From a virus: a stretch of DNA of 64,000 nucleotides. The position numbers and the translations under genes were made by a program. Positions within the stretch are counted from its first letter, which is position 1. Every line of letters starts with the position of its first letter. Shown here piece by piece: positions 14,201 through 45,601 of this stretch. The stretch spans positions 1 through 64,000 of IMG/VR virus record IMGVR_UViG_3300025096_000006. One strand, written 5' to 3'. The notes beneath the pieces were generated by a model that ran no database searches, was not told the DNA's origin, and was given only the letters and a program-made list of their open reading frames with translations.

Positions 14201-16027
14201 TTATAGACCAGCCTCACCAATGAGTCCGCGAACGATAACGAGACCGTACATATCAGGACGAACCATCTTCTTGGCATAACGAGTCATGACTCCCTTACGG
14301 GGCACGAAGTCCTCTGGTCCAAAGATGGTAGGTGTGGTCTGCAGTGGTACGTAAGGTGCGTACACATATCCGCTTTCAAGGAAAGAGGATCCGCGACGAC
14401 CAACGAGAACCACGTTGCGCAGGAAGTAGGGGTCAACAATAACGTCATACTTCTTGCTCAAGGAACCAGCCTTGACAGCACCAACAGAGCCCTTGGCATC
14501 ATCCATTGCGACACTTGCACGGAAACCGGAAGTGAACTCAAGGATGTTAGCAACCTCTGGGGAAACCACCAAGAAGTTAGCTCCACCACGAAGAGTCTTT
14601 CTGTGGATCTGGGCAGAAACATCGTTAATTGTCTCAACGAGAGTCTCATACCACTCGCTAACCGTACCAGTGAAGTCGGGAGCAGCAGAGCTAGCACCGA
14701 TTTCTGCACCAGTAACGCGGTTCACGAACAGACCTGGAGAACGAGACCAGTAGTAAGTAGCTGCTGTAGCACCATTCACAAGGTCAGCAAGGACCTCGCG
14801 ATCGATTTCGAGAGCAATCTGCTCCGAAAGGATGCTTGTAAGCTCGACCTCCGCATCAAGGTTGTGGTAGGCATTAAGATCTTGTCCTAATTCCGGCGTC
14901 CACTTAGCCTTGAGCTTCTTGGTCTGAGCGGTAACAGCAATGCTATCCACCTTGATGTCGATCTCAGGGATGAATTCGTTGGATTCAAGTCCCCAGGATG
15001 TAGCACCAACAACCGCACCAAGGGCAGTTGCGTTTGTAAGCTTATCCTTGAGAGGATAGCTAAACTCACCAGTAGCAATACCGGTAGCGCTGCTCTTGTC
15101 AGTATTACCAGCAGTTAAAGAACCACCAGCCATAGCTAAGACGACTCTGAGAGCCTTGTTAGTAAGAGTGGCATCAGCGGCAGCAATACGACTAGTCAAA
15201 CGACGAATCTGCTTCTGAAAGTCGGCACCAGCCGCGTCAGCAACAGCATCCAACGTTGCCAAAGCTGTGTCGCTAATTACGAATGCTCCGAGATTGTCGA
15301 AGTCCATGTAATCAACACCACGTGCGTCAGCAAGATCAGCCTCATCTATATCCATAATAACAATACCAATTGAAGAATCGGTGGACGAGAGAAGATCAGC
15401 ATCATAGTCGATAAGCTTTTTGTTAGCTTCAGTGACAGCACCATCAAGCAAGAATGCACCCATAACTGTGATGCTAGCCTGAGTAATATTAGCGTCGTTA
15501 CTTCCGGTTGGGGACGAGTAGTTGTAACCCATGGCAGTACGAGGACCACCAAAGTCTTCGGCATAAGTGCCTCCGACAAGATCCACACCCGAAACGATTT
15601 CGCTACCAACCTGATTAGTACCATAGATCGACTTGTCGACTGTGTTACCAGTTCTGGCGGCTAGGGTTCCGGAAGCGCCAATATCAGGCGAGTACACGAA
15701 GTCCAGGAAGAAGATGAGCCCACTTGGCAGACTCATGGGCTGAACACTAACGAGATCGTTAGCAACCAGACCGGCGAAAACACGACGGACGATGGGGAAT
15801 GCGACGGCTGCGAAACCTTCAACATCTCCAGCAGCCATACTGCTACTCTCGCGAAGAAGCTCCTTAGCCTGATTCTCTAAGAGTCGAGCCATGGTGCCTT
15901 TCTTACGATCATCTCCAAGACCCTCTAAGAGTCCTGTGCGCTCCCACTTTGATAACAAAGCATGACCTTCGGAGCGCATATTACGGTCAACAATACCTTC
16001 TGTCAACCTTTCAACAATACCAGACAT
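14201..16027 (-). CDS. gp23: Major capsid protein, T4 gp23-like
   Basis: A 608-residue capsid protein of the T4 branch of the HK97 fold. The N-terminal 60 residues are a helical, charged prosegment. An LRE site at 58-60 fits the (L/I)-x-E rule of T4-type prohead proteases, so the mature chain would start SSSMAAGDVEGF, close to the T4 cut after residue 65. The next segment FPIVRRVFAGLVANDLVSVQ then PMSLPSGLIFFLDF is diagnostic of gp23. Later KAKWTPELGQDLNAYHNLD and FVPRKGVMTRYAKKMV, near the C-terminus, are also typical. GGAGGTG precedes the ATG. The scaffold gene lies just upstream and a strong terminator follows. Confidence 0.95.
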   Translation of the reverse strand: MSGIVERLTEGIVDRNMRSEGHALLSKWERTGLLEGLGDDRKKGTMARLLENQAKELLRESSSMAAGDVEGFAAVAFPIVRRVFAGLVANDLVSVQPMSLPSGLIFFLDFVYSPDIGASGTLAARTGNTVDKSIYGTNQVGSEIVSGVDLVGGTYAEDFGGPRTAMGYNYSSPTGSNDANITQASITVMGAFLLDGAVTEANKKLIDYDADLLSSTDSSIGIVIMDIDEADLADARGVDYMDFDNLGAFVISDTALATLDAVADAAGADFQKQIRRLTSRIAAADATLTNKALRVVLAMAGGSLTAGNTDKSSATGIATGEFSYPLKDKLTNATALGAVVGATSWGLESNEFIPEIDIKVDSIAVTAQTKKLKAKWTPELGQDLNAYHNLDAEVELTSILSEQIALEIDREVLADLVNGATAATYYWSRSPGLFVNRVTGAEIGASSAAPDFTGTVSEWYETLVETINDVSAQIHRKTLRGGANFLVVSPEVANILEFTSGFRASVAMDDAKGSVGAVKAGSLSKKYDVIVDPYFLRNVVLVGRRGSSFLESGYVYAPYVPLQTTPTIFGPEDFVPRKGVMTRYAKKMVRPDMYGLVIVRGLIGEAGL

Positions 16028-26680: not shown

Positions 26681-27088
26681 CTATTTCATCGCTTTCCAAA
26701 TTTGAGAAGCATTTCCCATAATTGATGATATATCAACACCCGGATCATTAGAGTTTCCAAGATCCGCATGACCTGATTGAGAGCCCTCATCCGCAATAGG
26801 CTGTGTATTCTCAAATAGATTAACTCCATTATATGCATCGGAATTAATAGAATTCATCAGCTTGGCGCGGTGTTCTTTTAATTTTACCCTTGACTCAGCA
26901 GATTTGCGCTGAATATGTGAATCATCTGTGACTGTTGTCTTGGGAGCGCTTTCAACTATAAGAGCACCTTGCATTCCTTTGGCAACCTCAACAACAACGC
27001 TAGATAGAAGCCCTTCCTCTAGAAGGACTTCATGTATGCATTCTTTTACGAGAGGCTTAATCAGCTCTTTTAGATCTGATTTCTTCAT
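26681..27088 (-). CDS. Probable prohead core / internal protein (135 residues)
   Basis: A 135-residue protein starting MKKSDLKELIKPLVKECI and continuing HEVLLEEG, a loose form of the recurrent amphipathic N-terminal peptide seen in many genes of this window, with several (I/L)-x-E sites. The rest is hydrophilic and probably disordered, with charged helix near residues 60-85 and a SSIMGNASQIWKAMK end. It lies two genes downstream of the prohead protease, next to the 762-residue putative core protein. T4 places small core proteins (gp67, gp68) in a similar position around the protease. No known domain is visible; core or internal protein is inferred. Confidence 0.6.
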   Translation of the reverse strand: MKKSDLKELIKPLVKECIHEVLLEEGLLSSVVVEVAKGMQGALIVESAPKTTVTDDSHIQRKSAESRVKLKEHRAKLMNSINSDAYNGVNLFENTQPIADEGSQSGHADLGNSNDPGVDISSIMGNASQIWKAMK

Positions 27089-27091
27089 ATA

Positions 27092-29380
27092 TCACCCTTT
27101 AAGTATACCAGCAATTTCACCCCAACGAGAGAAAGTGCTTAGCTCTTCTGCAAGCTGCTTAACCGTCTCAGCTTCCTCTTCCTCTTCTTCTTCTGCAGCT
27201 TGAGCTGCGGCACCAGGACCGCCTTTAACTGTTTCGGCTGCAGCTAGCTGGGCATCTGCACCAGGGCCGCCTTTAACTGTTTCGGCTGCGGCGGCTTGAG
27301 CTTCTGCTCCGGGTCCACCTTTAACCGTTTCAGCTGTTTCGGCGCCGGCTTCTGCAGGGCGAAGAGCCATGCTAGACTGAGGATCAAGTTTAACCTTGTG
27401 CTGTCTAAGCATTTGAACAATTGCAGCTTTCGCCAATTCTTTTTGAGCTGGGTCCTGAATTTGTTCTAAAGCCTCTAGTGTTTGTACAAGAGCGATCATT
27501 TCTCTTTTTGCCTCTTCAAGAACATTGAACCCAGCAGCAGTTAGATCCGAACGCAGACCCTTCAATAGGCGACTCATATCTCCGCCTTTAATGCCACCGC
27601 GTGCAAATTGTGATTGCATTCCCTTGCCTGCTTTGCCGCGGAAAACATAAATATCGCCGCGCTTTGCTGCTGTTTCTGGATCTACTTCGGGTCCGGTTGG
27701 TCCAGGTCCAGGAGTGGTTGGTCCAGGTCCAGGAGTGGTTGGTCCAGGTCCAGGTCCAACAGGTCCAGGTCCAACAGGGGGCTGATCGACGCCAGGGGTT
27801 TCAGTTCCAGGTCCAGGAGGCTGATCAACACCAGTTTGCTGACCGGTTTCCGGATCAACGCCGGGAGGAGGCTCTTCTTTTCCTTTGGTTTTTGGGGGAA
27901 TTTCCTGCTCGCCACCCTTGAGTGGAGACTTTGCCTCGTCGGCATCCGGAAGGGGAGCCATTACTTTAAGCAGATCGCCTAGTTGCTGGGTGCGTGAAGA
28001 TTTATACATCTTCCATCTACCAACAGCCAAAGCAGCGACTCCAGCAGCTACACCAGCGATACCCAACATTGTGGCGGTAGACATTCCGGCGCTGGCAGCT
28101 TGGGCGCCGGCGCTGGCAGCGGTGCCAGCCGTGCCTGTACGACTTCGTGCGGGCTCTTCATCTTCATAGGGCGCCTGCTCGGATGTGCCGGGCTCTTCAT
28201 CTTCATAGGGCGCCTGCTCGGATGTGCCGGGCTCTTCATCTTCATAGGGCGCCTGCTCGGATGTGCCGGGCTCTTCATCTTCGCCGGGGTCGGGATCGGG
28301 AGCCGTAGAACCCATTTTGGCGGTGCGGCTCGTGGGCTCATCATCTGAGGGAGGTGCTTCATATCTGCCTTGCTTCTCCGCGTCAGACATCAGCTGATCT
28401 TCGGATGCATCGTCACCGAAGCCGGCGTCTTCTAGGCGCTCCATGGCATCAGATTGCCTGCGGTTTAGATCGCCACCTCTTCCTTGTTTTCTCGTCTGAG
28501 TTCTTGCAAGCTGATCATACATGCGCTTGCCTCTCTTAACTTGTCTAACTGTCTGGCGTCCTTTCTGAATTGTATTCCAAATATCGAAGGCGGCACCAAC
28601 GCTGATCTCGTTCATAAGCTCGTTCTCAGTAAGTGGCTCCACGCTCCAGTCGCGATCTCTTCGTAGCATTTCGTTAGTATGTTTGTAAATATCAGCCAAC
28701 TGATACTCTCTTGCATGGTCAACCACTTTGCGCAATGCATTGATAACGCTGTTAGCTGCAACAGGATCATAGTCTCCTTTTTGAGCCGCTTCTAGGACGG
28801 AATCATACAATTGTGCAATCTCTGTGGCTGCATCTTTGAACTCTTGTGTACCTTTAGTATTTGGCCATCCGGGGTACTTATCCTGCAAACCCTTAACAAG
28901 AGATTGCACGCCTTGGTCAGCGGATGCATCAAGTGCTGCTTGCAATTCTTCTTGAGCCTGTTGAGTGCGGCGCCCTCTACCAAACATAGAGCCGCCTTTT
29001 TCTAAAGAACCAGCCTTGGATAGAAAGTGTTTAAATCCTTCCCAGCGACTATAACCGCCACCTTTTCCGCCTTCAGGCGCCTCTTCACCTTCTGCGCCCT
29101 CGGCGCCTTCTTCACCTTCAGGAGGAGCTTCGGCTTCTTCATCTTTTCCGCGACCAAACATTTTGCCAACGCCGCGCTTAAGAGCATCCCAGGCTCCTTC
29201 GTCAATTGAATGAATATCTACAGGATATCCTACTCTATTTTCAAGCAAATTTTTGATAAAAAGACTTTCAAAATCTTTTCTTTCGGCTGCAAGTTTTTTG
29301 TGCTCCTGCAGTATCTTCTTATTAAGTTTGTACTGTGCTTTTTCTTCTTCAATAATTCTTCTTAAAGTTTTTTTATCCAT
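27092..29380 (-). CDS. Large repeat-rich putative prohead core protein
   Basis: A 762-residue protein starting MDKKTLRRIIEEEKAQYKLN, a loose version of the recurrent N-terminal peptide, then charged helical sequence. Glu/Gly/Ala-rich stretches lie near residue 80-110. Three perfect 13-residue repeats (EEPGTSEQAPYED) lie near 370-412, then a hydrophobic segment (MLGIAGVAAGVAALAVG) near 440. A Gly-Pro-rich region (GPGPTTP repeats) lies near 535-570, and three AETVKGGPGA repeats near 680-730. It starts at the stop of the prohead protease gene. Low-complexity acidic regions, coiled coil and many (I/L)-x-E sites fit a prohead core protein processed by the protease, but the possible membrane segment is unusual. 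No enzyme domain seen. Confidence 0.6.
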   Translation of the reverse strand: MDKKTLRRIIEEEKAQYKLNKKILQEHKKLAAERKDFESLFIKNLLENRVGYPVDIHSIDEGAWDALKRGVGKMFGRGKDEEAEAPPEGEEGAEGAEGEEAPEGGKGGGYSRWEGFKHFLSKAGSLEKGGSMFGRGRRTQQAQEELQAALDASADQGVQSLVKGLQDKYPGWPNTKGTQEFKDAATEIAQLYDSVLEAAQKGDYDPVAANSVINALRKVVDHAREYQLADIYKHTNEMLRRDRDWSVEPLTENELMNEISVGAAFDIWNTIQKGRQTVRQVKRGKRMYDQLARTQTRKQGRGGDLNRRQSDAMERLEDAGFGDDASEDQLMSDAEKQGRYEAPPSDDEPTSRTAKMGSTAPDPDPGEDEEPGTSEQAPYEDEEPGTSEQAPYEDEEPGTSEQAPYEDEEPARSRTGTAGTAASAGAQAASAGMSTATMLGIAGVAAGVAALAVGRWKMYKSSRTQQLGDLLKVMAPLPDADEAKSPLKGGEQEIPPKTKGKEEPPPGVDPETGQQTGVDQPPGPGTETPGVDQPPVGPGPVGPGPGPTTPGPGPTTPGPGPTGPEVDPETAAKRGDIYVFRGKAGKGMQSQFARGGIKGGDMSRLLKGLRSDLTAAGFNVLEEAKREMIALVQTLEALEQIQDPAQKELAKAAIVQMLRQHKVKLDPQSSMALRPAEAGAETAETVKGGPGAEAQAAAAETVKGGPGADAQLAAAETVKGGPGAAAQAAEEEEEEEAETVKQLAEELSTFSRWGEIAGILKG
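28151..28283 (-). repeat. 39-bp tandem repeat in core protein gene
   Basis: Three perfect 39-bp units (28151-28189, 28190-28228, 28229-28267) plus a 16-base partial fourth. They encode a 13-residue acidic Pro/Glu repeat. Perfect identity suggests recent expansion. Confidence 0.9.
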
Positions 29381-29988
29381 TATTCAAAATCTCCTAAAAT
29401 ATCGTTTAAAACTCTATTAATCCTGTCTGCCTTGGTAAAGACTGTGTTGTTATAATTTTTTGCTTCTTGCATCATAAATGCATTTGGCGTTGATGGCTCT
29501 GATACAAAATCAAAACAAATTAGCTGAAAATCATCCTCGACCATAGTTTGCCCGGCGCTTTCTGTCACAGAGCCCATGCCACGAGAGGAAATGCCAAGTT
29601 TAACTCCAGAATCAACTAGGCTTTTAAGAACTTTTCCTGACGGTGTGTCGAGTACTTTTACTTTTCCCATAACGCTCTTATTGTCCCACCACACATCCGT
29701 CACAAGATGAGATGCATTTTTAAGATTAATAACGGAATCCTCTGGGTGGTCTAGTTCTCCTAGGGCTCGGCGTTCTTTTACGAGCTTCTGATAGTTTTTC
29801 ATTTCGCGCATCAGCACTCGATGCGGATATACCCTGCCATTGCCGTTTTGAATATCTGCTTCTTGAAGCTTGCCTGACAAGATCATGCCGCCGCTTGCCA
29901 CATATCTTTTTTCCTCTTCAGTCAAAAGATCTTGACAAACGCCACCTTCGCATAGTTCATAATATTCTCGTAAGAGCTTCTTACCCAT
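29380..29988 (-). CDS. gp21: Prohead protease, T4 gp21-like
   Basis: A 202-residue serine protease of the herpesvirus-assemblin/T4 gp21 type. The core reads LSGKLQEADIQNGNGRVYPH (about 37-56), GELDHPE with the catalytic His at 81, then GVKLGISSRGMGSV with the catalytic Ser at about 135, and DFVSEPSTPNAFM near 165-180. It digests the scaffold and trims capsid and internal proteins after (L/I)-x-E. The position after portal genes and before core proteins is that of T4. The N-terminal 30 residues (LREYYELCEGGVCQDLLTEE) may be a self-removed propeptide. AAAGGA lies ten bases before the ATG. The last base overlaps the next ATG. Confidence 0.9.
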   Translation of the reverse strand: MGKKLLREYYELCEGGVCQDLLTEEEKRYVASGGMILSGKLQEADIQNGNGRVYPHRVLMREMKNYQKLVKERRALGELDHPEDSVINLKNASHLVTDVWWDNKSVMGKVKVLDTPSGKVLKSLVDSGVKLGISSRGMGSVTESAGQTMVEDDFQLICFDFVSEPSTPNAFMMQEAKNYNNTVFTKADRINRVLNDILGDFE

Positions 29989-30891: not shown

Positions 30892-31708
30892 CGCTATAAA
30901 TTTCCTCAACTAGTGATTGTGTCTTTAAAACAGTTAATAATATTTCATCATTAAAGTCTTGCTTTGCGAAGGTATTTAAGTGTTCAATAATTCTTTTGGC
31001 CTTATTGTGCATATCCGAATCGTTTTTAATCTCCTGCGTTTGCAAGGCTTCATTAAGCTTTAGTTTTAATCTTGAAATTTCTTCATTTAAAAAGACCTTC
31101 AACCCCAAAGCATTATCGGCAAAAGAAGAAATATAATGTGTAAGCAGCTCTTTCTGTTCGGATAACAGATTCTGCTCATATTTTTTATTAAACTTATCGA
31201 CGAATGCTCTATAAACAAGACCATCTACCAAATCAGTCGATACATGTCGTATATTAGACTTTTGCATGCTATCAACGATTCGGTTTTCTAAGATTACTAA
31301 TGACTTAGGAGAAGTTCTATCTGAAAATAATTGTCCAATTGTGGCAAGAGATTTGTAATTTGGCACAAAATTACCAAACACAGAAGACGATAATTGTTTA
31401 TTGATGTCGTGAATTAAGCTTGTTTGAGCATCGAAAACTGATTCAGGATTTATTAGTTTCTGTTGCAGCTTTGCTTCTTGTATAATTCTCTTTGATGTCT
31501 GCTTGTCTAGATTTTGCTCTTCATACAAAGAGCGATAGCATTCCAGATCTTTTCTCAAAATGCTGCCGGGCTTAAAGTATTTTTTAATTAGACTGGCTGC
31601 ATTGTTTTGTCTTTCAAGATCCTTTTTAAGAATAGCCACAGTTGCTTCTACTATTAAGGCTTCGTATACAAAGGCTGTGTTTCTCTTTTTATTGTGCTTT
31701 ATCTTCAT
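30881..31708 (-). CDS. Unknown helical head-cluster protein after portal gene
   Basis: A 275-residue, mostly alpha-helical, charged protein starting MKIKHNKKRNTAFVYEALIV. It has Lys/Glu-rich helices throughout (for example EQNLDKQTSKRIIQEAKLQQ) and no Cys pairs, signal peptide or membrane segment. It overlaps the 3' end of the portal gene by 20 bases and has GGAG before its ATG. In T4 the genes after portal encode prohead core proteins gp67 and gp68, so a core or portal-assembly role is a fair inference. I know similar unnamed genes beside portal genes in T4-like phages but cannot name a function. Confidence 0.65.
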   Translation of the reverse strand: MKIKHNKKRNTAFVYEALIVEATVAILKKDLERQNNAASLIKKYFKPGSILRKDLECYRSLYEEQNLDKQTSKRIIQEAKLQQKLINPESVFDAQTSLIHDINKQLSSSVFGNFVPNYKSLATIGQLFSDRTSPKSLVILENRIVDSMQKSNIRHVSTDLVDGLVYRAFVDKFNKKYEQNLLSEQKELLTHYISSFADNALGLKVFLNEEISRLKLKLNEALQTQEIKNDSDMHNKAKRIIEHLNTFAKQDFNDEILLTVLKTQSLVEEIYSDAN

Positions 31709-33668
31709 TCTTTTGCTCCATTAATAAATTATTAGCCTCTAGTCCCTTAAGCAAGTTACGAAGAGAGTCGTTTATTTGAAATAGTCTATCTTCTTCTGTC
31801 TGCTCTCTTAAAGTATAATTAGATTCTTGTTTCTCATAAATACCTTTAGAAATCGAGGGTATCGTGTTAATTTCTCTTCCTGGATATAATGGTCGAGGAG
31901 AAGCGCCACGCATTTCATTGTCTCGCTTAGCGGCATAGTTCCTGGTTCTGGGTCCAGTAGACTTTCTTTTATCTACCTTTACAGGGGTATATTTTTCGCC
32001 GCGACCATATGTTCTTGTATTACGGGAGCCAGGAGGCACTGCAAGCAATGCAGAATCTTCACCACCGCCCTCGTCACCGCCGGCGTCGGGAGCCGGCATT
32101 TCTTCACCACCGCCGATGTCTCCTCCGAGGTCTCCTCCGAGGTCTCCTCCGAGATCACCACCAAGATCTCCTCCGAGATCATCGCCGCCTAAATCACCGC
32201 CGGCGCCACCTTCCGCAGCTGCGGCTTCTGCAACTGCCTGAAGTGCCGCGTCATGCTTGCGATCATAGTACATCTCGCGCTGATTGCGCATAAATTCTTC
32301 ATGAGACATTCCAAAGATATGTTCTGCGACCCAACGACGGGAGAAGAATCCTTCGGTTGCGCCACCAGCAATATCAAATTTAGACTTCCAATGTTCAATT
32401 TCTTGAAGTTCAGCAATCTTTGATGGATTATTTAACGCCAACTTAAATGCCAGCAAATCATCGCCTCTAAATCCTAGCGTGTAAAGATGGATAACTCCAA
32501 TTTTTGTAAGCTCAGCTACAACAACTCTTTGTAACCTTTGAATTGTTCTGGCGAACCTAAGATCTTTTTGTGCCAAGGTTGTTTTATCTTCTGCTGCTCC
32601 TTCACCCATTGCAAGGTAAGCTTGAGGTATCTTTAATGCAGAAAATAATTTATCGCGAAGATATTTAATATCATCAATCTGTGTCGTGTTTTGCCCACCA
32701 GCAAGATTGGTAATTTCCGTAGCAGAGCCAGGACGCACAGGAATAAAATAGTCTTCTTCGATAGACATTGGATTATATCGTAAATCAATTTGTCCGGTTG
32801 ATGCGTCTACAACTTGATGTCTTTTAAGCTGTGAGACAATCTTTTGCATATATTGCTCGACTTCGTTTGGAGGTATAGCGCCAACATCGATTTTAAACAA
32901 TCTTCTTTCAGAGGATCTAACAATCCTATATGCCATCATAGCGTCCTCCATTAAAACCAGCTGGCGCCAAATACGACGAGCAGGCTCAAGAATAGATGTG
33001 CCGTATGGAGCATACTTGTCATTGCCTAAAACACGAAAATGTGCAACTTGCCAATTTTCGAAAGTCATGCCGGCGCTGTTCCACTGATATTGGACGTAGT
33101 TAGGGTTGGTGGAATCTTGTCCCTCAAGCCTCTCAAGCTCAGAGGGAGGCAGCGCGATTACTGATTGTACGCCGTACTTTTCATCAATATCAAGATACAA
33201 AAAGAAGTCGCCATATTTAGACATCGTGCGACTCCAGCCAAAAAGATTGTACTGAACATTAAGAATGTTGTCAAAAAGGACCTCTAAAACTGCTCTAATC
33301 TCCTCATTAGGACATTTAACATTTAACATAGGGCTAAGACTTGAATGAGTTGTCATCTCGTCAGCGTAAATGTCTAACGTGGAGGCAATCTCGGGTGTAT
33401 ATTCCATCTGATCAAAATCAACATATCTTTCAACGCGCCTTTGATTGGCAATTGCATTTGTGGCAATTGTGTCCAAAGGATTGTAAAGTGCTTTTTTAAA
33501 CTGTTGACCTGAAGCTGATTTAAATCTAGTGCCAAATTTGTCTAAATGCTGTCTTCTGATCTTCCTTCCTGTCTGTGATCGATAATTAACTATTGGTCCG
33601 GAGAATAGTCTAGTTAATGCTTTGAATAAGCCTGATTGATCATTAGAAGGGTTTTTGTTTGGGGGCAT
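31689..33668 (-). CDS. gp20: Portal vertex protein, T4 gp20-like
   Basis: A 659-residue portal of the T4 type. Typical segments are YTPEIASTLDIYADEMTTHS (about 93-112), NLFGWSRTMSKYGDFFLYLD, WQVAHFRVLGNDKYAPYGTS, then RRIWRQLVLMEDAMMAYRIV, and IDDIKYLRDKLFSALKIPQA then YLAMGEGAAEDKTTLAQKDL. The dodecamer forms the DNA entry gate and docks the terminase. The C-terminal 150 residues are an extra low-complexity tail with six or seven GGDLGGD-type repeats and a basic stretch, making the protein longer than T4 gp20 (524 residues). It starts eight bases after the terminase stop. Confidence 0.93.
   Translation of the reverse strand: MPPNKNPSNDQSGLFKALTRLFSGPIVNYRSQTGRKIRRQHLDKFGTRFKSASGQQFKKALYNPLDTIATNAIANQRRVERYVDFDQMEYTPEIASTLDIYADEMTTHSSLSPMLNVKCPNEEIRAVLEVLFDNILNVQYNLFGWSRTMSKYGDFFLYLDIDEKYGVQSVIALPPSELERLEGQDSTNPNYVQYQWNSAGMTFENWQVAHFRVLGNDKYAPYGTSILEPARRIWRQLVLMEDAMMAYRIVRSSERRLFKIDVGAIPPNEVEQYMQKIVSQLKRHQVVDASTGQIDLRYNPMSIEEDYFIPVRPGSATEITNLAGGQNTTQIDDIKYLRDKLFSALKIPQAYLAMGEGAAEDKTTLAQKDLRFARTIQRLQRVVVAELTKIGVIHLYTLGFRGDDLLAFKLALNNPSKIAELQEIEHWKSKFDIAGGATEGFFSRRWVAEHIFGMSHEEFMRNQREMYYDRKHDAALQAVAEAAAAEGGAGGDLGGDDLGGDLGGDLGGDLGGDLGGDIGGGEEMPAPDAGGDEGGGEDSALLAVPPGSRNTRTYGRGEKYTPVKVDKRKSTGPRTRNYAAKRDNEMRGASPRPLYPGREINTIPSISKGIYEKQESNYTLREQTEEDRLFQINDSLRNLLKGLEANNLLMEQKNEDKAQ
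32113..32200 (-). repeat. Gly-Asp repeat tract in portal C-terminus
   Basis: A run of imperfect 12-base units (ctcctccgaggt type on the plus strand) encoding GGDLGGDLGGD in the portal tail. Low complexity and near-identical units suggest slippage. Confidence 0.8.
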
Positions 33669-33676
33669 TTATTTTC

Positions 33677-35263
33677 TCACTTTATAATCCATTTATATTG
33701 TTCATACATTTTTTCTGCTTCAGTCATTTTATCAAAAATTTCATTGGTTTTGTAGCCATGCTGTCCTTTGATTTGTGTATTAATTTTTGTTCTAGAAGTA
33801 TAAATCGCGCCAACAAAAGCCTTTTGATAATTTAAATCTCGCGCGTTTGCTTGCAGTGCTGTATCTCTTACCCAGCACGCGATGGCTAGCGCCATAATCA
33901 AATCATCATTGTAGCCTTTCATTGCTTGCGGTTTGCCGTTCCTCCAAATAAAAGTCTTCATCTCGCTCACAGTGCGAGAAGAATATATGGTAATTAGTTT
34001 GTTTCTGACAAACTCCTCTAATTTAGCGACGATGAGGGGGCGCGTCTTCATAGAGGTCGTGAAGCCGGGCACTGCAGAATTCATTACTTCGGCTTGATGT
34101 TGCTCAATATATTCGTGCGTAGATTTAATCGAATGATAAACATTGGGATATTGGTAATCATCAATGAGTTTAGTGAGAACAGAATATCCGATGTTATTGT
34201 TTTCCACCACAAGCATACAATTACCGAACTCTTTACCGACACTGTTTAACATATTTGCAAACATATCCAATGTTGGTTTTCCTTGATACTCTCCCACCAC
34301 TTCAAGCGTTTCAAGTTTAACGATATGAAATGTAGAAAAATCGGTGGCGTCTCCGCGGGACACATCTGCAACTAAAAGATAATTGCAAGTTGGATCAAAC
34401 TCTTCCCATATCCAAAAGTTTCTATCAAAGCCAGTTCGATATTTCGGATCGCGAATGGTCGATAACATCCACTCCATACATTCGGGATCAATCACAGTCT
34501 CGCCAGATGTATTGAAGTTGCACTCAAGCTCTTGCGCAATCTGGCGCTTAGACATATTCTTGGTTTCTTTCTTATACCATTCCTGATTCCGATCTGGATG
34601 AACATTCCACGGCAAGGTGGTCAAATGAAAGTTGTTTGCTCCTGATTCTGAATCATTGCATGTTTTATGAAACCAGTTACCAACGCCGTTTGGTGTTGAC
34701 AGTGCAATGCAACGCCCACCAGTTGATAGCGTGGGATACAAACCGGTCCAAAGCTCCTCTAATCCTTCAATGTGGGCGGCCTCATCAAGCACTAAAAGCG
34801 ACAGGGCTTCTGAACGACCAGCATCGCCAGAAGTAGATGCCGCTTTAATTGAAGAGCCATTAGAAAGCTCAAACGAGGTGCGATTGTCAACACTTATTTG
34901 TGCAATTCTCAGCCAATCAGGAACATTGCGCATGATGTGCTTAACTTTCTTAACCAAGTTTCCCGCTGTAGCAAACTTTGTTGCCATAACAAGAATGGAT
35001 TTATCGCGATGAAATAACATCATCCACACAATATAGCCTGCAGTAATAGTTGAAATACCTAGCTGGCGAGCTTTTAAAATAACATTAAAGCGGTAATCAT
35101 TAAAATCTTTGAGAAGCTCATCTTGGAAGTCAAAAGTGTTAAAAAGAATAAGCCCGTGCATCGGATGAGATATTCTTGCATAAGTGTTAAGGAAGTAGGA
35201 GGGATCTTTTCCACACTTAAGTATCTCTTTTACTCTTTGTTGTTTGTCTAATTGGTAACTCAT
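33677..35263 (-). CDS. terL: Terminase large subunit, T4 gp17-like
   Basis: A 528-residue packaging motor. The ATPase domain has the Walker A variant KARQLGIST (64-72) and Walker B LLVLDEAAH (D160, E161), followed by the coupling motif LSTPNG (189-194). The RNase H-like nuclease has LLVADVSRGD (D300), an ENNNIGY segment near 355, and the C-terminal YNDDLIMALAIA acid pair. It cuts concatemeric DNA and drives it into the prohead through the portal encoded next. Slightly shorter than T4 gp17 (610 residues). A small terminase subunit is not recognised; the 189-residue gene nearby is a possible candidate only by position. Confidence 0.95.
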   Translation of the reverse strand: MSYQLDKQQRVKEILKCGKDPSYFLNTYARISHPMHGLILFNTFDFQDELLKDFNDYRFNVILKARQLGISTITAGYIVWMMLFHRDKSILVMATKFATAGNLVKKVKHIMRNVPDWLRIAQISVDNRTSFELSNGSSIKAASTSGDAGRSEALSLLVLDEAAHIEGLEELWTGLYPTLSTGGRCIALSTPNGVGNWFHKTCNDSESGANNFHLTTLPWNVHPDRNQEWYKKETKNMSKRQIAQELECNFNTSGETVIDPECMEWMLSTIRDPKYRTGFDRNFWIWEEFDPTCNYLLVADVSRGDATDFSTFHIVKLETLEVVGEYQGKPTLDMFANMLNSVGKEFGNCMLVVENNNIGYSVLTKLIDDYQYPNVYHSIKSTHEYIEQHQAEVMNSAVPGFTTSMKTRPLIVAKLEEFVRNKLITIYSSRTVSEMKTFIWRNGKPQAMKGYNDDLIMALAIACWVRDTALQANARDLNYQKAFVGAIYTSRTKINTQIKGQHGYKTNEIFDKMTEAEKMYEQYKWIIK

Positions 35264-35272
35264 TAATCATCT

Positions 35273-35686
35273 TTATTCAAACAGTTCTTCTAAAATTAGC
35301 CTATCATCTGAAGTGGGCAAGGACCAGTCATTTGTAAATCCGGTCCAGTCGATTTCGCATATATATTTTCTTTGACCCCGAAGAAGCGACTCTACCAATC
35401 TATGATACCCATCAACAACGAGAAACTTGTTTTCTTCTTTAATCCACACAACACTTAATGGTCGGTGGGATGATTTGCTTTTAATGCCTTCCGTAAAGTG
35501 ACGATAGGCTGCAAGGATTCCGTAATCAGAATTTCCTTTTTCTACAATCAAATCATTATAATGCAATTCGCAAACTTCAGGGATCTTATCAAAAAGATAT
35601 TTCTCAGATCTCTCTTCTGCCTGTTCTACAGTAAATCTAATTTCTTCTAAAATTAGCTGCCTTAACTTGGATTTAGTAAGGCGCAC
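35273..35686 (-). CDS. ParB/Srx-like domain protein with putative capsid-targeting N-terminus
   Basis: A 137-residue protein from a GTG at 35686 with AAGGA upstream. Residues 1-17 (MRLTKSKLRQLILEEIR) match the recurrent N-terminal peptide of this window, with an I-L-E site. The body has the ParB/sulfiredoxin-like pattern: PLSVVWIKEENKFLVVDGYH then RLVESLLRGQRKYICEI, where the VDGYHR box corresponds to the ParB GxxR/H(R) phosphate-binding motif. Such domains bind CTP in ParB, or act as nucleases or ADP-ribosyl/adenylyl-type enzymes in phage proteins. It lies directly before terminase. I infer an internal, possibly DNA-associated, virion protein; the biochemical activity is open. Confidence 0.7.
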   Translation of the reverse strand: MRLTKSKLRQLILEEIRFTVEQAEERSEKYLFDKIPEVCELHYNDLIVEKGNSDYGILAAYRHFTEGIKSKSSHRPLSVVWIKEENKFLVVDGYHRLVESLLRGQRKYICEIDWTGFTNDWSLPTSDDRLILEELFE

Positions 35687-35689
35687 TTT

Positions 35690-36259
35690 TTAAGATTCCT
35701 TTTTGCGAGTATCGTTTTTTGGTCTCTTTCCTTTCCAGCCGCCTAATTCAACAAACTTTTTCCAAGCTGCTTCATGGCTAGCATGAACCGGATCTACATT
35801 TGCTTCGCCAACTAGTCCGACGCTATCTAATCCACCGATCTTATAGTGACACTTGGCTGTTACCCAGCTTCGAATTCTAGATGAGTTTTCAACCAAAACC
35901 TCTATTTCGCCTTCTTTTGTTAGGCTAACCGATTTACCGGTAATTCTACGATACTCTTTCTTTAAATAAGAAGCAATATCAGCAATTTTTTGCTCAATCT
36001 CGCCTTCAAAGCCGCTATCGTGCACCTCTTTAAGCTGCACTTCTGAATGATACTTAATACACATCATAGGTCCATAAAACGCAACCCCAAATCCATCTAG
36101 AACTCTTTTATCTAAGATAAGATCACCTTCTTCTCTCTTTAACCCAATCTCTAATAGTTCTCCATCTTCAGTATACGCGCCATCATATGCGTTGGCTGCA
36201 GCCTGAGCTAAACCACTTACGATATCTGAGACAGATGCTGCTTCTTGTTTTTTAGCCAT
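35690..36259 (-). CDS. Unknown protein upstream of terminase cluster
   Basis: A 189-residue soluble protein starting MAKKQEAASVSDIVSGLAQA. The middle is alpha/beta (YGPMMCIKYHSEVQLKEVHD, then IADIASYLKKEYRRITGKSV), and the C-terminus is basic with WKKFVELGGWKGKRPKND. I recognise no family. It begins with a TAATG overlap with the zinc-ribbon gene and ends three bases before the ParB-like gene. Because it lies two genes upstream of the large terminase and has a basic tail, it could be a divergent small terminase or DNA-binding cofactor, but the sequence shows no helix-turn-helix I can defend. Confidence 0.6.
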   Translation of the reverse strand: MAKKQEAASVSDIVSGLAQAAANAYDGAYTEDGELLEIGLKREEGDLILDKRVLDGFGVAFYGPMMCIKYHSEVQLKEVHDSGFEGEIEQKIADIASYLKKEYRRITGKSVSLTKEGEIEVLVENSSRIRSWVTAKCHYKIGGLDSVGLVGEANVDPVHASHEAAWKKFVELGGWKGKRPKNDTRKKES

Positions 36260-37704: not shown

Positions 37705-38805
37705 TCACGGATCCGTAAGCGGGAATCCGCCGCCTGTAGCAGCATATGCGGCTCGTCGCTCTTCTGGAGTTGGGTGGCGCGCGTTGCCGCCAGGACCGCC
37801 TAAGCCGCCGCCGGCGGGACGTGGACCGGCATCGTGTTGTTGAATATTGCCTGTAGTATTTAAATAATTGTAGAAGGCAGCTAGCGCATCCAATATTGTT
37901 TCTTCCTCGTCATTATCTGCCTGAATTGTTTCCATAGCGCTGCGAAGATCTCCTTTGTATTGGCGCCACATATTTTCCAGTTGTTTAATTTGACTAGTCG
38001 TGCGTCTCATTGGATTGGTAATTACGCCATCAACACCCGTCATAGCTTGCTGGCGCAACTCGGCGGGGTCAACATAGTCACCGGCTTCAAACTCTTTCAC
38101 AGTTTCCTTGGCATCCCATGCATCCTCGCGCGTCACAGTAGGATCGCCAGGATCAGCCTCAAGTTTTGCCATAATCTCACGGGCACGGTCGATACTCATG
38201 CCGCGGACTTCGTTTAAAAGTTCGGTACGCATATGTTGCTCAATTAGATAAAGATAATATTCTTCTTGAACAATGTTCTCAGCCACTTGCACATCTTCGG
38301 GATGAGGATCCATTTTTTTCAGCTGAATGGCCATGTTGATAATATCTTCTTGAGAATATCCAGCCTTCAACAAGGCTATTAACATTTTTTCAATTTCATA
38401 GCTCATGTCTCCAATCTGTGCGCGCATTGCCGCGATCTGCCTATCGGGAGCTAGACCTTCCGAAAATTCCCCGTGACCTTCATTAAGCATTTTATTAATT
38501 TCTTCCTTAATAATCTCGGTTAACTCAGCTAAGCTCTCTTTAAATCCCATCACGGGGCGATCGCCTTCGCCGCCTCCAGGCTGATACTCTGTGGGGAACT
38601 CTTCTTCTTCTGGCTCGGGGCTGGGCTCTGAGACATCAGCGTCATACATTTCATCATACACCGCGCCCATAATGTCGCCGGTCACATTTGGTGGAGTGCC
38701 CTGCAGTAGTGCAACAATAGTACGCTGGGCATCTTCGGCGCTCACCTCCTCTTTGATAACTTCCTCGGCTATAATCTCACGTAATCTTTTAAGGGTAATT
38801 TTCAT
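37705..38805 (-). CDS. Putative internal/core protein with capsid-targeting-like N-terminus (366 residues)
   Basis: A 366-residue acidic protein starting MKITLKRLREIIAEEVIKEE, a clear version of the recurrent N-terminal peptide, with an I-A-E site identical to that cut in T4. A second similar stretch (LTEIIKEEINKMLNEG) lies near residue 93. The rest is helical and charged with an acidic Pro/Glu linker near 60-75 and a Gly/Pro-rich C-terminus. No enzyme domain is visible. It lies in an overlapping run of small genes that share the same N-terminal peptide. I infer a prohead core or internal virion protein processed by the prohead protease. Confidence 0.65.
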   Translation of the reverse strand: MKITLKRLREIIAEEVIKEEVSAEDAQRTIVALLQGTPPNVTGDIMGAVYDEMYDADVSEPSPEPEEEEFPTEYQPGGGEGDRPVMGFKESLAELTEIIKEEINKMLNEGHGEFSEGLAPDRQIAAMRAQIGDMSYEIEKMLIALLKAGYSQEDIINMAIQLKKMDPHPEDVQVAENIVQEEYYLYLIEQHMRTELLNEVRGMSIDRAREIMAKLEADPGDPTVTREDAWDAKETVKEFEAGDYVDPAELRQQAMTGVDGVITNPMRRTTSQIKQLENMWRQYKGDLRSAMETIQADNDEEETILDALAAFYNYLNTTGNIQQHDAGPRPAGGGLGGPGGNARHPTPEERRAAYAATGGGFPLTDP

Positions 38806-38806
38806 C

Positions 38807-39037
38807 TTAGTATTTTGCCTGTATTAATTCTGCCACAATACTAGCTAATGCCTCTGGTCCCAAGCCAGAATCTCCAGTAAGGGCTTCAATCTGAGTTCTA
38901 ATATCCTTGGCTAAGGACTGGGCTGCAGCCGGAATTTCTTTTACAGCTTGCATAACTTTTTCGCCCTCTTCTTCTTCTTTAAGTGCCTTAAGTTCTTCTT
39001 TAATAATTTGTTTAAGCTGTGTTTTTGTTATTTTCAT
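38807..39037 (-). CDS. Small protein with capsid-targeting-like N-terminus (76 residues)
   Basis: From the ATG at 39037, with AAGGATG upstream, the product starts MKITKTQLKQIIKEELKALK and is only 76 residues, acidic then Ala/Leu-rich, ending VAELIQAKY. The frame is open 23 codons further upstream, but the shared peptide and the ribosome site fix this start. The first 15 residues are almost identical to those of four other genes in this region. The remaining 60 residues match no family I know. It overlaps its upstream neighbour by TAATG. Likely a small internal head protein, by inference from the N-terminus. Confidence 0.65.
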   Translation of the reverse strand: MKITKTQLKQIIKEELKALKEEEEGEKVMQAVKEIPAAAQSLAKDIRTQIEALTGDSGLGPEALASIVAELIQAKY

Positions 39038-39267: not shown

Positions 39268-39521
39268 TGTGTTACTAAGCCCTCAATTCTATCAAGTATA
39301 TCCCTGAGATGTGTAAGCTCGCTCTCGACTCTAATTAATGTTCTCGTTGCTTCTTCCTGTTCGTCAACCTGTTCCTCAAGTTCTGCTACCTGTCGCTCCA
39401 AGTCTCCCATATCATTTCTTAATTGAGATACTTCTACATTTACAGACCACACCCAGCCAGCAAGAGGCATAATAATTGCCCCTAATACAAGTGTAAATAT
39501 TTTCCACATATCTGGTTTCAT
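39264..39521 (-). CDS. Small membrane-anchored coiled-coil protein
   Basis: An 85-residue protein with one N-terminal membrane helix (IFTLVLGAIIMPLAGWVWSV) and a heptad-rich remainder (LRNDMGDLERQVAELEEQVD, TLIRVESELTHLRDILDRIE). Its ATG overlaps the stop of the FtsZ-like gene (ATGA). The topology fits an i-spanin-like or haemolysin XhlA-like phage protein. Together with the next gene it forms a second small envelope pair in addition to that at 36.6-37.5 kb. A membrane anchor for the FtsZ-like filament is another possibility given the direct overlap. Confidence 0.6.
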   Translation of the reverse strand: MKPDMWKIFTLVLGAIIMPLAGWVWSVNVEVSQLRNDMGDLERQVAELEEQVDEQEEATRTLIRVESELTHLRDILDRIEGLVTQ

Positions 39522-40657
39522 GTCGCTAATCCATTCATACTTAGTATCGCAATCAATCCAGGCACATTCTTACGCACGTAAACACCAGAGAATAGTGTCT
39601 CGCATCTACCGCCGACATAAGCGATTGCTGACTCAATGTTTTTACTAACTCTTGGATCTGCCACCATTTCCTCAGACGCCACTAAGATTAGGGAGCCGGC
39701 TGCAGCTTTTCCTTTAGGTGGTGGGCAGGCAGACCTATTCATACAGTTGTGTAGGATCACCGATCCAAGCTTTCCAGTATTTGGATCTTTTATCATGGTT
39801 GAGCCGAGAAAAGCTCTCCCGTCGTTGCCCAAGCATGTTTCCAGATCTTTACTATCAAAAGATTGGATCGGTGAATCCTCGGTGGAGAGTTTTAGCACCT
39901 GGGCGAACGACTTAGCAAATTGTGTGTTGGCGACAGGATACATGCCGAGCATGCCGATCCTACCGCGAAGCAAGCGCGTTGCGCGCTCGTTATCTAGAAT
40001 GATGTGTGGGTGCTTGGCAACATCGTTTGCCAATGTCAGCGCATTTCTAGCGATTGTGGGGTTAAGGTTTTCCTGTGCTGTTGGCCAAGAGACAATATAT
40101 ACTACCTTTCCGGAAGACTGAACAGACTTCATATAACGTTCGAATACCGGGTGAAGTGCAGTCACAGAACTACCGGTTCCGCCGCCTCCGCCAGCAAGAA
40201 CAAACAGCCAGTCAACCTTTCCAAGTTTAATGCGCAATGCGTCTTCTACGATTGCACCGTTAGTAGAGAAAACCTCTTTACCGTAATCTACATTCTTCCC
40301 GATGCCGTCACTGTCGGGAATAAGAACAACGTGATCTTCTTCCACGTTCTTCGGGATGTCCTTGCCTGTGGAATTCACAAGCAGAGTCTTATTAAAGCCA
40401 AGCTCTAAGAAAGCATTAGCCATCTTGTTTCCGCCCCCACCAACACCAACAAAGCCTACGTTAATAGACGAAGGAGCAGTGTTTTCTGGAAGGAGATCTT
40501 CATCAGAGTATTCCATCTGTAGTCCGAAGTCCTCAACCATTCCAAAATCTTCTGCTGCGACTTCTTCGTGATAGCTGTCTTTCTCCTGATTAAAGGAGGG
40601 TGGTGGTTCTGCGGGAGGCAAAAAATCAAATTCATTATCGTTGTCTTTATTGCTCAT
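39518..40657 (-). CDS. FtsZ/tubulin-family GTPase
   Basis: A 379-residue cytoskeletal GTPase. An acidic, disordered extension of about 65 residues precedes the Rossmann start INVGFVGVGGGGNKMANAF (P-loop-like GVGGGGN at 71-77). The tubulin signature is AGGGGGTGSS (155-164). The region LDNERATRLL (221-230) corresponds to the FtsZ nucleotide-contact segment. The T7-loop equivalent SFDSKDL keeps both acidic residues (D268, D271), so GTP hydrolysis on polymerisation is expected. Phage tubulins are known (PhuZ of phiKZ-like phages, TubZ-like in some phages), where they form filaments that position DNA or heads. Sequence features here look closer to FtsZ. ATGA overlaps on both sides tie it to small head-type genes. 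Confidence 0.88.
   Translation of the reverse strand: MSNKDNDNEFDFLPPAEPPPSFNQEKDSYHEEVAAEDFGMVEDFGLQMEYSDEDLLPENTAPSSINVGFVGVGGGGNKMANAFLELGFNKTLLVNSTGKDIPKNVEEDHVVLIPDSDGIGKNVDYGKEVFSTNGAIVEDALRIKLGKVDWLFVLAGGGGGTGSSVTALHPVFERYMKSVQSSGKVVYIVSWPTAQENLNPTIARNALTLANDVAKHPHIILDNERATRLLRGRIGMLGMYPVANTQFAKSFAQVLKLSTEDSPIQSFDSKDLETCLGNDGRAFLGSTMIKDPNTGKLGSVILHNCMNRSACPPPKGKAAAGSLILVASEEMVADPRVSKNIESAIAYVGGRCETLFSGVYVRKNVPGLIAILSMNGLAT
39520..39546. repeat. 27-bp repeat, copy 1 (3' end of FtsZ-like gene)
   Basis: Encodes the last residues SMNGLAT and most of the stop of the FtsZ-like protein. An exact second copy lies at 45299-45325 in a non-coding gap. Confidence 0.9.
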
Positions 40658-41202
40658 TGTTGCTCCATTGCAAATTCTTCTTCGGCCTGTGCGAGAAGTC
40701 TATTTTGTCTTTCGTTGTTAGGAGATGCTGTCACTCTCACGCCGGGCATGCCTCTCATAATGCCTTTTACCATATCGATATATTCTCTATCAGGGTCTCT
40801 CTCGGCTTGTCGCTTCTCCCAAGCTTCTCTATCAACATCGCTCATTCCGCCTCCATAACTTTTCTTAGGCTTTTTTCGATACGGAGATGCAATCTCGGGT
40901 TCGCCTTGCGAATCAAAAACAGCGCCATAATCGTGACGACCATAGGACTCTTCAAGCTCTTCTTCAGAAGCAGGTGCACGCTTGAAAAGAGTAGCCAACT
41001 GATTAATCAGAGCAACTCCTGCGGTTCCAATGGTTGCCGCGAGCACTTCGGGCTGTCGAATAAAATGTTGTGCTGCATCGGCCACTAGCTGGAGATTTTC
41101 TGGCGTAACATTTTCAAGCCCTTCGTCCAACTCTCGTGACTCCATGGTCAATTCAAGCTCTTCTTTGATAATCTGTTTAAGTTGGGATTTTGTGATTTTC
41201 AT
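40654..41202 (-). CDS. Putative internal protein with capsid-targeting-like N-terminus (182 residues)
   Basis: From the ATG at 41202 (ATGA overlap with the previous stop) the product starts MKITKSQLKQIIKEELELTM, the best-conserved form of the recurrent peptide. A helical stretch with a weak hydrophobic segment (VLAATIGTAGVALINQLATL) follows near residues 54-73. A charged, Tyr/Gly-containing middle and an Arg/Glu-rich end come after. No enzyme motif seen. The gene lies between another gene with the same N-terminus and the FtsZ-like gene, all with 4-base overlaps. I infer a virion internal protein; the hydrophobic stretch could let it interact with membranes on ejection. Confidence 0.65.
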   Translation of the reverse strand: MKITKSQLKQIIKEELELTMESRELDEGLENVTPENLQLVADAAQHFIRQPEVLAATIGTAGVALINQLATLFKRAPASEEELEESYGRHDYGAVFDSQGEPEIASPYRKKPKKSYGGGMSDVDREAWEKRQAERDPDREYIDMVKGIMRGMPGVRVTASPNNERQNRLLAQAEEEFAMEQQ

Positions 41203-41441
41203 TTCTTCTTTTCGCAATAGCCTTTCAAACCTCTAGAGAGATCATAGCTTTTGGATTTGGAGCCTTTAGACTCTTTCGCGTATCTCCATTTTCCACCTTC
41301 GCTTTCGCATTTCTCTATCTTGCCTGGGTCATCTTGACCCGAGGCGCCACCAGCGGGCTGATCGTGTGGATCTGTTGCTTCCAGCACCGCTGCTAGTTCT
41401 TCCTTGATGATCTGTTTAAGGTGTGATTTTGTGACTTTCAT
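41199..41441 (-). CDS. Small protein with capsid-targeting-like N-terminus (80 residues)
   Basis: An 80-residue protein starting MKVTKSHLKQIIKEELAAVL. After the shared peptide come a Gly/Asp/Pro-rich linker and a basic end (SKGSKSKSYDLSRGLKGYCE). It has two Cys and no known domain. Its ATG overlaps the stop of the SbcD-SbcC fusion (TAATG) and its stop overlaps the next gene (ATGA). A basic tail could bind DNA in the head. The protein is too small for an enzyme. Confidence 0.65.
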   Translation of the reverse strand: MKVTKSHLKQIIKEELAAVLEATDPHDQPAGGASGQDDPGKIEKCESEGGKWRYAKESKGSKSKSYDLSRGLKGYCEKKK

Positions 41442-44769: not shown

Positions 44770-45285
44770 TTATCTTCTTGACATACTCTTGCTATAGCCG
44801 CTACGGGCTGGTGCGCCTTCATATCCGCCGGCGCGTTGACCAGATGGGGCAAGATTCCCTATTGCGTCAATCACCAGGGCGACTTTCTTGTCTATCCATT
44901 TGGGAGCGGTGACCATTAGATTTCCAATAGTTTGAGTAATTGTGTTGGTGACTCCTTCAGCTTCGAGTGCATCACCTTTACTATCCCAGTAATCCTCAAT
45001 ATCTCCCATATTCATAGCTTGTTTCAGAGCATGTCCCATATTAGAATCCAGAAGCTCCGCAAAATCCGTTCCTTCTAAAGATGATGGTGTATAATTACCG
45101 TCTCTTATATCTGCCATATAGTGCTGAAGAAATTTCATACCATCTCCACCCATCTCAAAATTGGTCCGATCGTCTCCTCTTGGTTTTCCCACCATGGTGC
45201 GCATCGTATCCATAAAACCTTCGTCTAGGCTTTTTTCAATCTCTTCTTTGATGATCTGCTTAAGTTGTTTCTTTGTGATTTTCAC
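44770..45285 (-). CDS. Putative internal protein with capsid-targeting-like N-terminus (171 residues)
   Basis: The start is a GTG at 45285, chosen because AAGGA lies about ten bases upstream and the product then begins with the shared peptide MKITKKQLKQIIKEEIEKSL. The frame is open much further but only through non-coding-looking sequence. A helical body (GGDGMKFLQHYMADIRDGNY, LLDSNMGHALKQAMNMGDIE) and a Gly/Arg/Ser-rich C-terminus (RAGGYEGAPARSGYSKS) follow. No enzyme motif. It follows the 93-residue gene with the same N-terminus after a gap that contains the 27-bp copy of the FtsZ-like gene end. Likely internal head protein, by inference. Confidence 0.65.
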   Translation of the reverse strand: MKITKKQLKQIIKEEIEKSLDEGFMDTMRTMVGKPRGDDRTNFEMGGDGMKFLQHYMADIRDGNYTPSSLEGTDFAELLDSNMGHALKQAMNMGDIEDYWDSKGDALEAEGVTNTITQTIGNLMVTAPKWIDKKVALVIDAIGNLAPSGQRAGGYEGAPARSGYSKSMSRR

Positions 45286-45298
45286 TTCATTATTCCTT

Positions 45299-45325
45299 AT
45301 GTCGCTAATCCATTCATACTTAGTA
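45299..45325. repeat. 27-bp repeat, copy 2 (copy of FtsZ-like gene end)
   Basis: Exact copy of 39520-39546, placed across the stop of the 93-residue gene and the gap after it. In this place it encodes nothing except the last Tyr codon and stop of that gene. Confidence 0.9.
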
Positions 45326-45601
45326 CTCTTCTTCTTCTCGATACAGAAGGGGTCCCTGCGGACTAAGCATCGTATCCCAGAATTGAGCCACATCACCGCG
45401 GTCTCCCTTGGTGTTAATAGCGTCCACTATCATGTCATAAGCTTCTTTGCCTGAGAGCGCACCGGGGCCCATTGAATTCATGATCTCGCTGACTTCCTGC
45501 GCCATTTCCATAGCATCGCCACGTTCGCGGATGCTTTCAATGCTGTAGGCATCATACTCTTCCTTGATAATCTGTTTAAGTTGTGATTTTGTGATTTTCA
45601 T
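45320..45601 (-). CDS. Small protein with capsid-targeting-like N-terminus (93 residues)
   Basis: A 93-residue protein starting MKITKSQLKQIIKEEYDAYS, nearly identical at DNA level over the first 45 bases to the 182-residue gene at 40.6-41.2 kb. The remainder is acidic and helical (MAQEVSEIMNSMGPGALSGK) and ends LLYREEEEY. AGGAG lies eight bases before the ATG. No domain recognised. It is the first of the run of genes with this N-terminus in transcription order, immediately after the unknown 136-residue gene. Confidence 0.65.
   Translation of the reverse strand: MKITKSQLKQIIKEEYDAYSIESIRERGDAMEMAQEVSEIMNSMGPGALSGKEAYDMIVDAINTKGDRGDVAQFWDTMLSPQGPLLYREEEEY

Follow-up and report, generated by a model that had tools for sequence, protein, structure and literature searches.

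A ParB/sulfiredoxin-fold protein behind a shared N-terminal tag in the head-gene cluster of a T4-like marine phage: a candidate packaged head protein

What does a small protein do directly upstream of a phage terminase gene, when its first residues recur on neighbouring genes and its remainder resembles the ParB/sulfiredoxin (ParB/Srx) domain? This question is raised by the open reading frame (ORF) at 35273-35686 of the window analysed here, namely, positions 1 to 64,000 of the 108,230-base IMG/VR virus record IMGVR_UViG_3300025096_000006. Minus frame 1 is open across all 137 amino acids of this interval, with an in-frame stop two codons before the start codon, and a plus-strand reading meets many stops; the coordinates given in a preliminary description of this DNA are correct, and the strand, which it had left out, is minus. 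Judging by the matches of its terminase large subunit (TerL), portal, prohead protease and capsid protein to PHROGs head families (Table 1), the record is that of a T4-like phage. The preliminary description had also placed the gene directly upstream of the terminase, and TerL indeed follows it after 9 nt, in the same orientation. The gene order u189, ParB-like gene, TerL and portal is kept in loci L001, L002, L003, L134 and L136. As L002 and L134 are one contig, L004 and L136 are another, and the L001 protein is 100% identical to that of the window, the close orthologues amount to three distinct tagged sequences.

Table 1. Coordinates, strand and supporting remarks for the window features discussed in the text.
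Feature	Position	Strand	Remark
ORF of 137 aa, tag plus ParB/Srx-fold domain	35273..35686	minus	GTG start
Tag, residues 1-20, VRLTKSKLRQLILEEIRFTV	35627..35686	minus	possible protease site I12-L13-E14/E15
ParB/Srx core, residues about 36-112	35351..35581	minus	supported by AF2, Foldseek, VIA-align; [DN]GYHR motif at 92-96
u189, 189-aa gene directly upstream of the 137-aa ORF	35690..36259	minus	conserved neighbour in the window clade
TerL, next gene downstream	33677..35263	minus	phrog_2 E 9.7e-50
Portal protein	31689..33668	minus	phrog_213 E 2.9e-71
T4 gp21-like prohead protease, proposed processing enzyme	29380..29988	minus	phrog_207 E 1.7e-54
T4-like major capsid protein	14201..16027	minus	phrog_138 E 3e-71; LRE/SS at residue 60
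Tagged ORF MKITLKRLREIIAEE	37705..38805	minus	
Tagged ORF MKITKTQLKQIIKEE	38807..39037	minus	
Tagged ORF MKITKSQLKQIIKEE	40654..41202	minus	
Tagged ORF MKVTKSHLKQIIKEE	41199..41441	minus	
Tagged ORF MKITKKQLKQIIKEE	44770..45285	minus	
Tagged ORF MKITKSQLKQIIKEE	45320..45601	minus	

The preliminary description had proposed a ParB/Srx core around the motif FLVVDGYHRLVESLLRG, which occupies residues 88-104 of the protein, and comparison of a predicted structure with known folds upheld this proposal. The AlphaFold2 model, built on an alignment of the 11 distinct family sequences described below, has a mean pLDDT of 78.1 and a pTM of 0.72, with blocks near 90 over residues 41-110; a model from four sequences (pLDDT 40.7) was set aside. 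First, Foldseek against the PDB gave a best E of 8.5e-3, with no match at E≤0.001, and its best 50 rows comprise sulfiredoxin, ParB, Noc, KorB, PadC, SerK and SbnI, together with two structural-genomics entries, 2hwj and 1vk1, which we take to be of the ParB/Srx type. Second, VIA-align placed 32 ParB/Srx-type entries at Z 5.2-6.9, the next being at 2.7 or less. Third, among viral models (BFVD) the top rows include gp111 of Bacillus phage G and many viral proteins annotated as ParB/sulfiredoxin. Residues S70, P76, G93, Y94, H95, R96 and E99 are invariant in 11 out of 11 relatives, and residue 92, with which the strand 87-92 of the model ends, is Asp in nine and Asn in two. By its predicted fold, the window protein belongs to the ParB/sulfiredoxin superfamily, which is defined by an alpha+beta fold with four strands, two helices and a conserved pocket arginine (here R96).

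Membership in two named families was excluded. Pfam, including PF02195 and PF18763, gave no match to the window protein; in the 108 kb record, at E≤10, neither profile matched, the PF02195 control being positive in 11 of 14 genomes, and PF18763 was also missing from a Pfam search of 10 family proteins at E≤1. The ParB/Noc CTPase clamps and sulfiredoxin have the same fold (VIA Z 5-7). Unlike ParB/Noc, however, the window protein lacks a PF02195 match and, at 137 aa, has no room for the HTH and C-terminal dimerisation domains, which excludes a ParB partition CTPase. The sulfiredoxin motif is a GGCHR loop with a catalytic Cys; here the motif is DGYHR, and the Tyr94 that is invariant in the 11 relatives, and that stands where sulfiredoxin has this Cys, excludes a sulfiredoxin. 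The missing profile matches in the record speak against a place within the DdrB-like ParB family (PF18763).

Profile searches gave weak hints towards NCBIfam SerK (E 0.0036) and a PHROG ParB-like family (E 0.072). Other candidates were discarded, namely, two NHL-repeat hits from phmmer against the PDB (E 0.78 and 1.5), read as chance, and weak matches to Cas6_N (0.16), phrog_17560 (0.01, function unknown) and phrog_847 (0.076), judged chance or uninformative. Profile A1 had no match among PDB sequences, and profile A6 had three at E≤10, of which the best (0.049) is an oxidoreductase and the others (0.13 and 0.32) are ParB/Srx. In tblastn the core alone drew numerous rows named 'terminase large subunit' (E about 1-10), but a ParB-terminase fusion was rejected; the segment inspected, residues about 117-157 of a 422-aa terminase from Staphylococcus phage 71, is without the GYHR motif and was read as chance.

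Phage G gp111 is the best named relative (tblastn E 3e-3; BFVD E 1.4e-5, with gp111 itself in the input alignment of the model), but, unlike the window protein, it has no tag, and it is uncharacterised, with unnamed neighbours. The free serine kinases SerK and SbnI have the same fold (the SerK profile above; SbnI profile E 0.32; 5x0k by Foldseek), although they are larger and their scores are weak. These kinases phosphorylate Ser with ADP or ATP by means of a catalytic Glu and Asp, and residue 92 of the present family is D in 9 of 11. Also comparable is DdrB of phage P1, which the cited passages describe as a late-gene product found in the P1 head; its ParB/Srx domain is proposed to act as a sensor of NTPs, to degrade them or to nick DNA (PMC5512222, PMC9024508). 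The two share this domain and a conserved Arg, and a D/N at a strand end may correspond as well; unlike the large, multidomain DdrB, the window protein is a stand-alone domain with a generic leader.

With regard to that leader, the N-terminus VRLTKSKLRQLILEE matches the tag on six other window ORFs (seven in all; Table 1), and the tag consensus, MKITKxQLKQIIKEE, corresponds to residues 1-15, modelled by AlphaFold2 at pLDDT<50. A strict DNA form of the tag matched four times in the 108 kb record and never in the reversed control, and the tag is encoded in all four contigs that hold close orthologues. A degenerate DNA form, run against viral contigs, matched at least 119 stretches; with the other loci, this amounts to at least 243 unique tagged ORFs in 128 records (1.18 Mb), and to at least 208 non-redundant tagged proteins of at least 60 aa each from phage contigs. 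The search expression partly fixes residues 1-15, so that conservation is independent only from residue 16 onward, where, in the 208 listed proteins, positions 16 and 20 are often L and position 22 often E before conservation drops. The bodies behind the tag are unalike: when 150 of these listed proteins were aligned, mean column identity was 4%. Pfam returned 15 single-member hits at E≤0.01, mostly weak, for 150 tagged proteins, in agreement with the preliminary claim that known domains are missing from most of them. The consensus gave no tblastn match in the phages collection, probably on account of the low-complexity filter, and in titles and abstract starts of the open-access literature searched, including that on ParB/Srx proteins in virions, we recognised no description of an MKITK-type tag. 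Two further ORFs, at 26681-27088 and 27092-29380 (both minus) beside the prohead protease, carry tag-like but divergent leaders, MKKSDLKELIKPLVKECIHEVLLEEG and MDKKTLRRIIEEEKAQYK, and the first has a counterpart at 11225-11608 of L149.

Short signals of this kind are known to load phage heads. The cited passages report that the capsid-targeting sequence (CTS) of T4, of about 10 residues, carries foreign proteins into heads (PMC9958956, PMC3012670), that T4 Alt is a packaged ADP-ribosyltransferase (ART) (PMC5512222), that a reporter is loaded by the first 30 residues of P1 DarB (PMC9024508), and that short propeptides, 20 and 24 residues long, occur in the giant phage SPN3US (PMC10052503). As in T4 IPI, IPII, IPIII and Alt, a short N-terminal leader with an LxE-type site precedes unrelated proteins, and the protease, portal, capsid protein and TerL in the window's record are of T4-like type. 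Unlike in T4, however, where the CTS reads MKTYQEFIAE, only the N-terminal MK and the IxE are shared with the tag, and the analogy is one of architecture.

Three lines of evidence bear on head targeting. First, [LI]xE ending at residues 20-26 was found in 97 of the 208 listed tagged proteins, compared with 22.1 ± 4.1 after shuffling (300 shuffles, maximum 31). By the same pattern, the T4 sites are IAE/A at 10 in IPII and IPIII, ITE/A at 19 in IPI and LTE/A at 65 in the capsid protein, and cleavage of T4 proteins at these sites is established knowledge. The window capsid protein has, by pattern match, LRE/SS at the place where T4 gp23 has LTE/AE, and at the equivalent place the capsid proteins of L149, L132, L135 and Mel-JY01 have LRE, LTE, ITE and ISE, respectively, while that of Flavobacterium phage immuto has no [LI]xE there. 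Second, 58 of the 119 listed tag-scan loci contain at least one of the five window head genes (TerL in 50, portal in 47, protease in 23, capsid in 5 and scaffold in 5), and in the 46 listed loci where TerL and a tagged ORF occur together, each of the 101 tagged ORFs lies on the TerL strand, 79 of them upstream. Third, the cargo is diverse. Enrichment of LxE, one-strand clustering with head genes and unrelated cargo back the preliminary view of the tag as capsid-targeting-like. They also speak against an improbable alternative, whereby the tag is a docking or stability signal other than head targeting and the protein an ordinary late cytoplasmic ParB/Srx enzyme; this would suit tag letters that differ from the T4 CTS and family members without a tag, head targeting being what we infer for the tag.

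The coding sequence behaves differently on the two sides of the end of the tag. Between the window and L002, codons 1-20 have one synonymous and no nonsynonymous change, codons 21-30 have one and four (four amino-acid changes within 21-25), and codons 31-60 have 15 and none; the corresponding figures against L004 are 1/0, 1/4 and 10/0. In both comparisons the variable stretch starts directly after the tag. Likeness of tag codons is 0.652 within a locus, against 0.441 expected from the bodies, and 0.539 between loci, against 0.432; because the within-locus excess is the larger, the tag may have spread by copying as DNA.

The 11 distinct family members, most of them in T4-like head or virion gene clusters, were gathered by [DN]GYHRxVE-type patterns and looser forms; pattern matches L139-L143 and L148 were dropped as chance frames, and [DN]GYHR occurs at no place in the genome contigs collection. 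The profile of these members finds, in the fetched loci, gp7 of Tenacibaculum phage Gundel_1, which lies outside it, at E 4.5e-6. Three members, the window clade, have the MKITK-type tag, three have another leader and five have neither. The second group, from L132, L135 and L150, stands behind MKSFIKNLVRKQLLE/S-type leaders, namely, MKSFIKNLVRKQLLESMP, MKELIRKQLRIILESMP and MKSFIKQRLREQLVESMP, each with [LI]xE/S. No leader was recognised on the members from L138, L147/L149, L131, phage G (gp111) and L144, the last of which lies inside a longer open frame. Since the untagged proteins of L138 (43% identical to the window protein) and L147/L149 (37%) align over the full length and start about where the window tag ends, the tag is, on this alignment, an added module, modular and clade-specific. 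The preliminary description had made its reading depend on tagged orthologues; the tag is kept in all close ones but absent from the distant L138 and L147/L149, a result that goes partly against that reading. In L138, a tagged protein at 6357-6740 (plus strand), MKISKKQLEKIIQEE, ends 4 nt before the start of the untagged orthologue.

Different leaders on mixed proteins also occur elsewhere. In the 362-kb phage of L150, MKx[hydrophobic]IK...-type leaders match at eight start codons, compared with none in reversed controls, although two of the eight are frames of 28 and 33 aa that may be chance; MKRLIKHLLRE leads an ART-PolyVal protein (E 7e-17), and the leader is also found on a poly(A) polymerase-head protein (E 6.7e-35). 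The repeated form MKxLIKxLLRE stands on mixed proteins of this record (G001) at loci L154, L156-L160 and L162. Repeated leaders are also found in the cultured phage immuto (L145; host Flavobacterium sp. LMO8), among them MKKSQLRQIIKEAL and FDLKKFLVENKLT. They are of two types, one MKKSQLRQIIKEAL-like and the other F[DN]L[KR][KS]FL[VT]ENKLT..., with [LI]xE behind the latter type in some cases; the genes lie at 2295-2870, 2881-3360, 3807-4355, 13189-13947, 17632-18633 and 18633-18932, and two are just upstream of its terminase.

The family's neighbourhoods invite another explanation, namely, that the protein is a head-assembly or packaging factor that works in the prohead core with the protease, portal or terminase, for instance as a nucleotide-sensing packaging regulator, with a tag that concentrates it there and no need for ejection. 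The gene adjoins TerL in the loci of conserved order named above, immediately precedes the prohead protease gene in L147/L149 and shares its locus with a capsid gene in L132 and L135, and the untagged orthologues fit a tag-independent role in the head cluster. We consider this rather unlikely: because the position of the gene in the cluster varies, no [DN]G[YFWH]HR-type protein was found among the CDSs scanned near the head genes of the related cultured phages immuto and Mel-JY01, and the neighbours of gp111 are unnamed, the gene does not behave like one for core morphogenesis.

Our preferred reading, to which we give a probability of roughly 0.5, makes the window protein an internal head protein of the T4 type whose cargo is a ParB/Srx domain; comparable to P1 DdrB, it would probably be packaged and ejected with the DNA. 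In this T4-like marine phage, the tag of about 15-20 residues would recruit the protein to the core of the prohead while this is still immature, as the T4 CTS does for internal proteins, and the gp21-like protease may trim it. Since the protein has no [LI]xE at residues 20-26, its sole candidate site being I12-L13-E14, the cut would most plausibly fall after these residues. The ParB/Srx domain would then remain in the filled head and leave with the genome, and in the new cell its GYHR pocket would probably bind, sense or hydrolyse a nucleotide, which would aid the phage during the earliest minutes of infection, perhaps by countering a host defence that targets nucleotides or DNA. Three features count against packaging, namely, the missing [LI]xE at 20-26, the letters of the T4 CTS and the acidity of the part behind the tag (pI 5.0), which compares with pI 9.1-9.5 in the basic untagged orthologues. 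Because the processed part is acidic, simple binding of DNA ends, as in the protection of entering DNA that the preliminary description had suggested, is disfavoured. Moreover, as the untagged L138 and L147/L149 proteins sit in comparable phages, the job of the domain may not need packaging.

Acidity would suit protein binding over DNA binding, and thus an injected anti-restriction decoy, whose ParB/Srx domain mimics or poisons those subunits of type IV restriction enzymes that have a ParB fold (GmrS/DUF262). In the cited passages, the T4 IPs share only their leader and inhibit GmrSD enzymes, the GmrS part of which contains a ParB_n domain (PMC12373910). These passages present the IPs as restriction inhibitors and not as ParB/Srx proteins. 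Both the host and a GmrS-like target are hypothetical here, and the invariant GYHR pocket speaks for a ligand or active site and not just for mimicry; we regard the decoy as very improbable.

What is new is the letters of the tag and the stand-alone ParB/Srx family; the strategy is already known. It is possible, if doubtful, that MKITKxQLKQIIKEE...LxE is an undescribed capsid-targeting code, used by many marine T4-like phages for dozens of head-loaded proteins, and that ParB/Srx pocket proteins, placed behind at least two unrelated codes in different phage lineages, are first-minute effectors, possibly against ParB-fold type IV restriction. If the tag loads heads, one short motif would reveal, in uncultured phages, hundreds of proteins that are probably ejected as effectors and of which hardly any has a known domain; like the signals of T4 and P1 before it, the tag could also serve to load heads with foreign proteins. 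The recurrence of one ParB/Srx domain behind different leaders would recommend this domain as an effector for assay.

Two further genes of the window are of recognisable type. Inside the block of tagged genes, an FtsZ/tubulin-family GTPase is encoded at 39518-40657 on the minus strand (PDB FtsZ E 9.6e-10), with a partial counterpart at the edge of L136. At 41441-44557, also on the minus strand, a single ORF of 1038 aa combines SbcD-like (phrog_100 E 1.5e-27) and SbcC-like (phrog_77 E 3e-51) parts, which in T4 are the separate genes gp47 and gp46.
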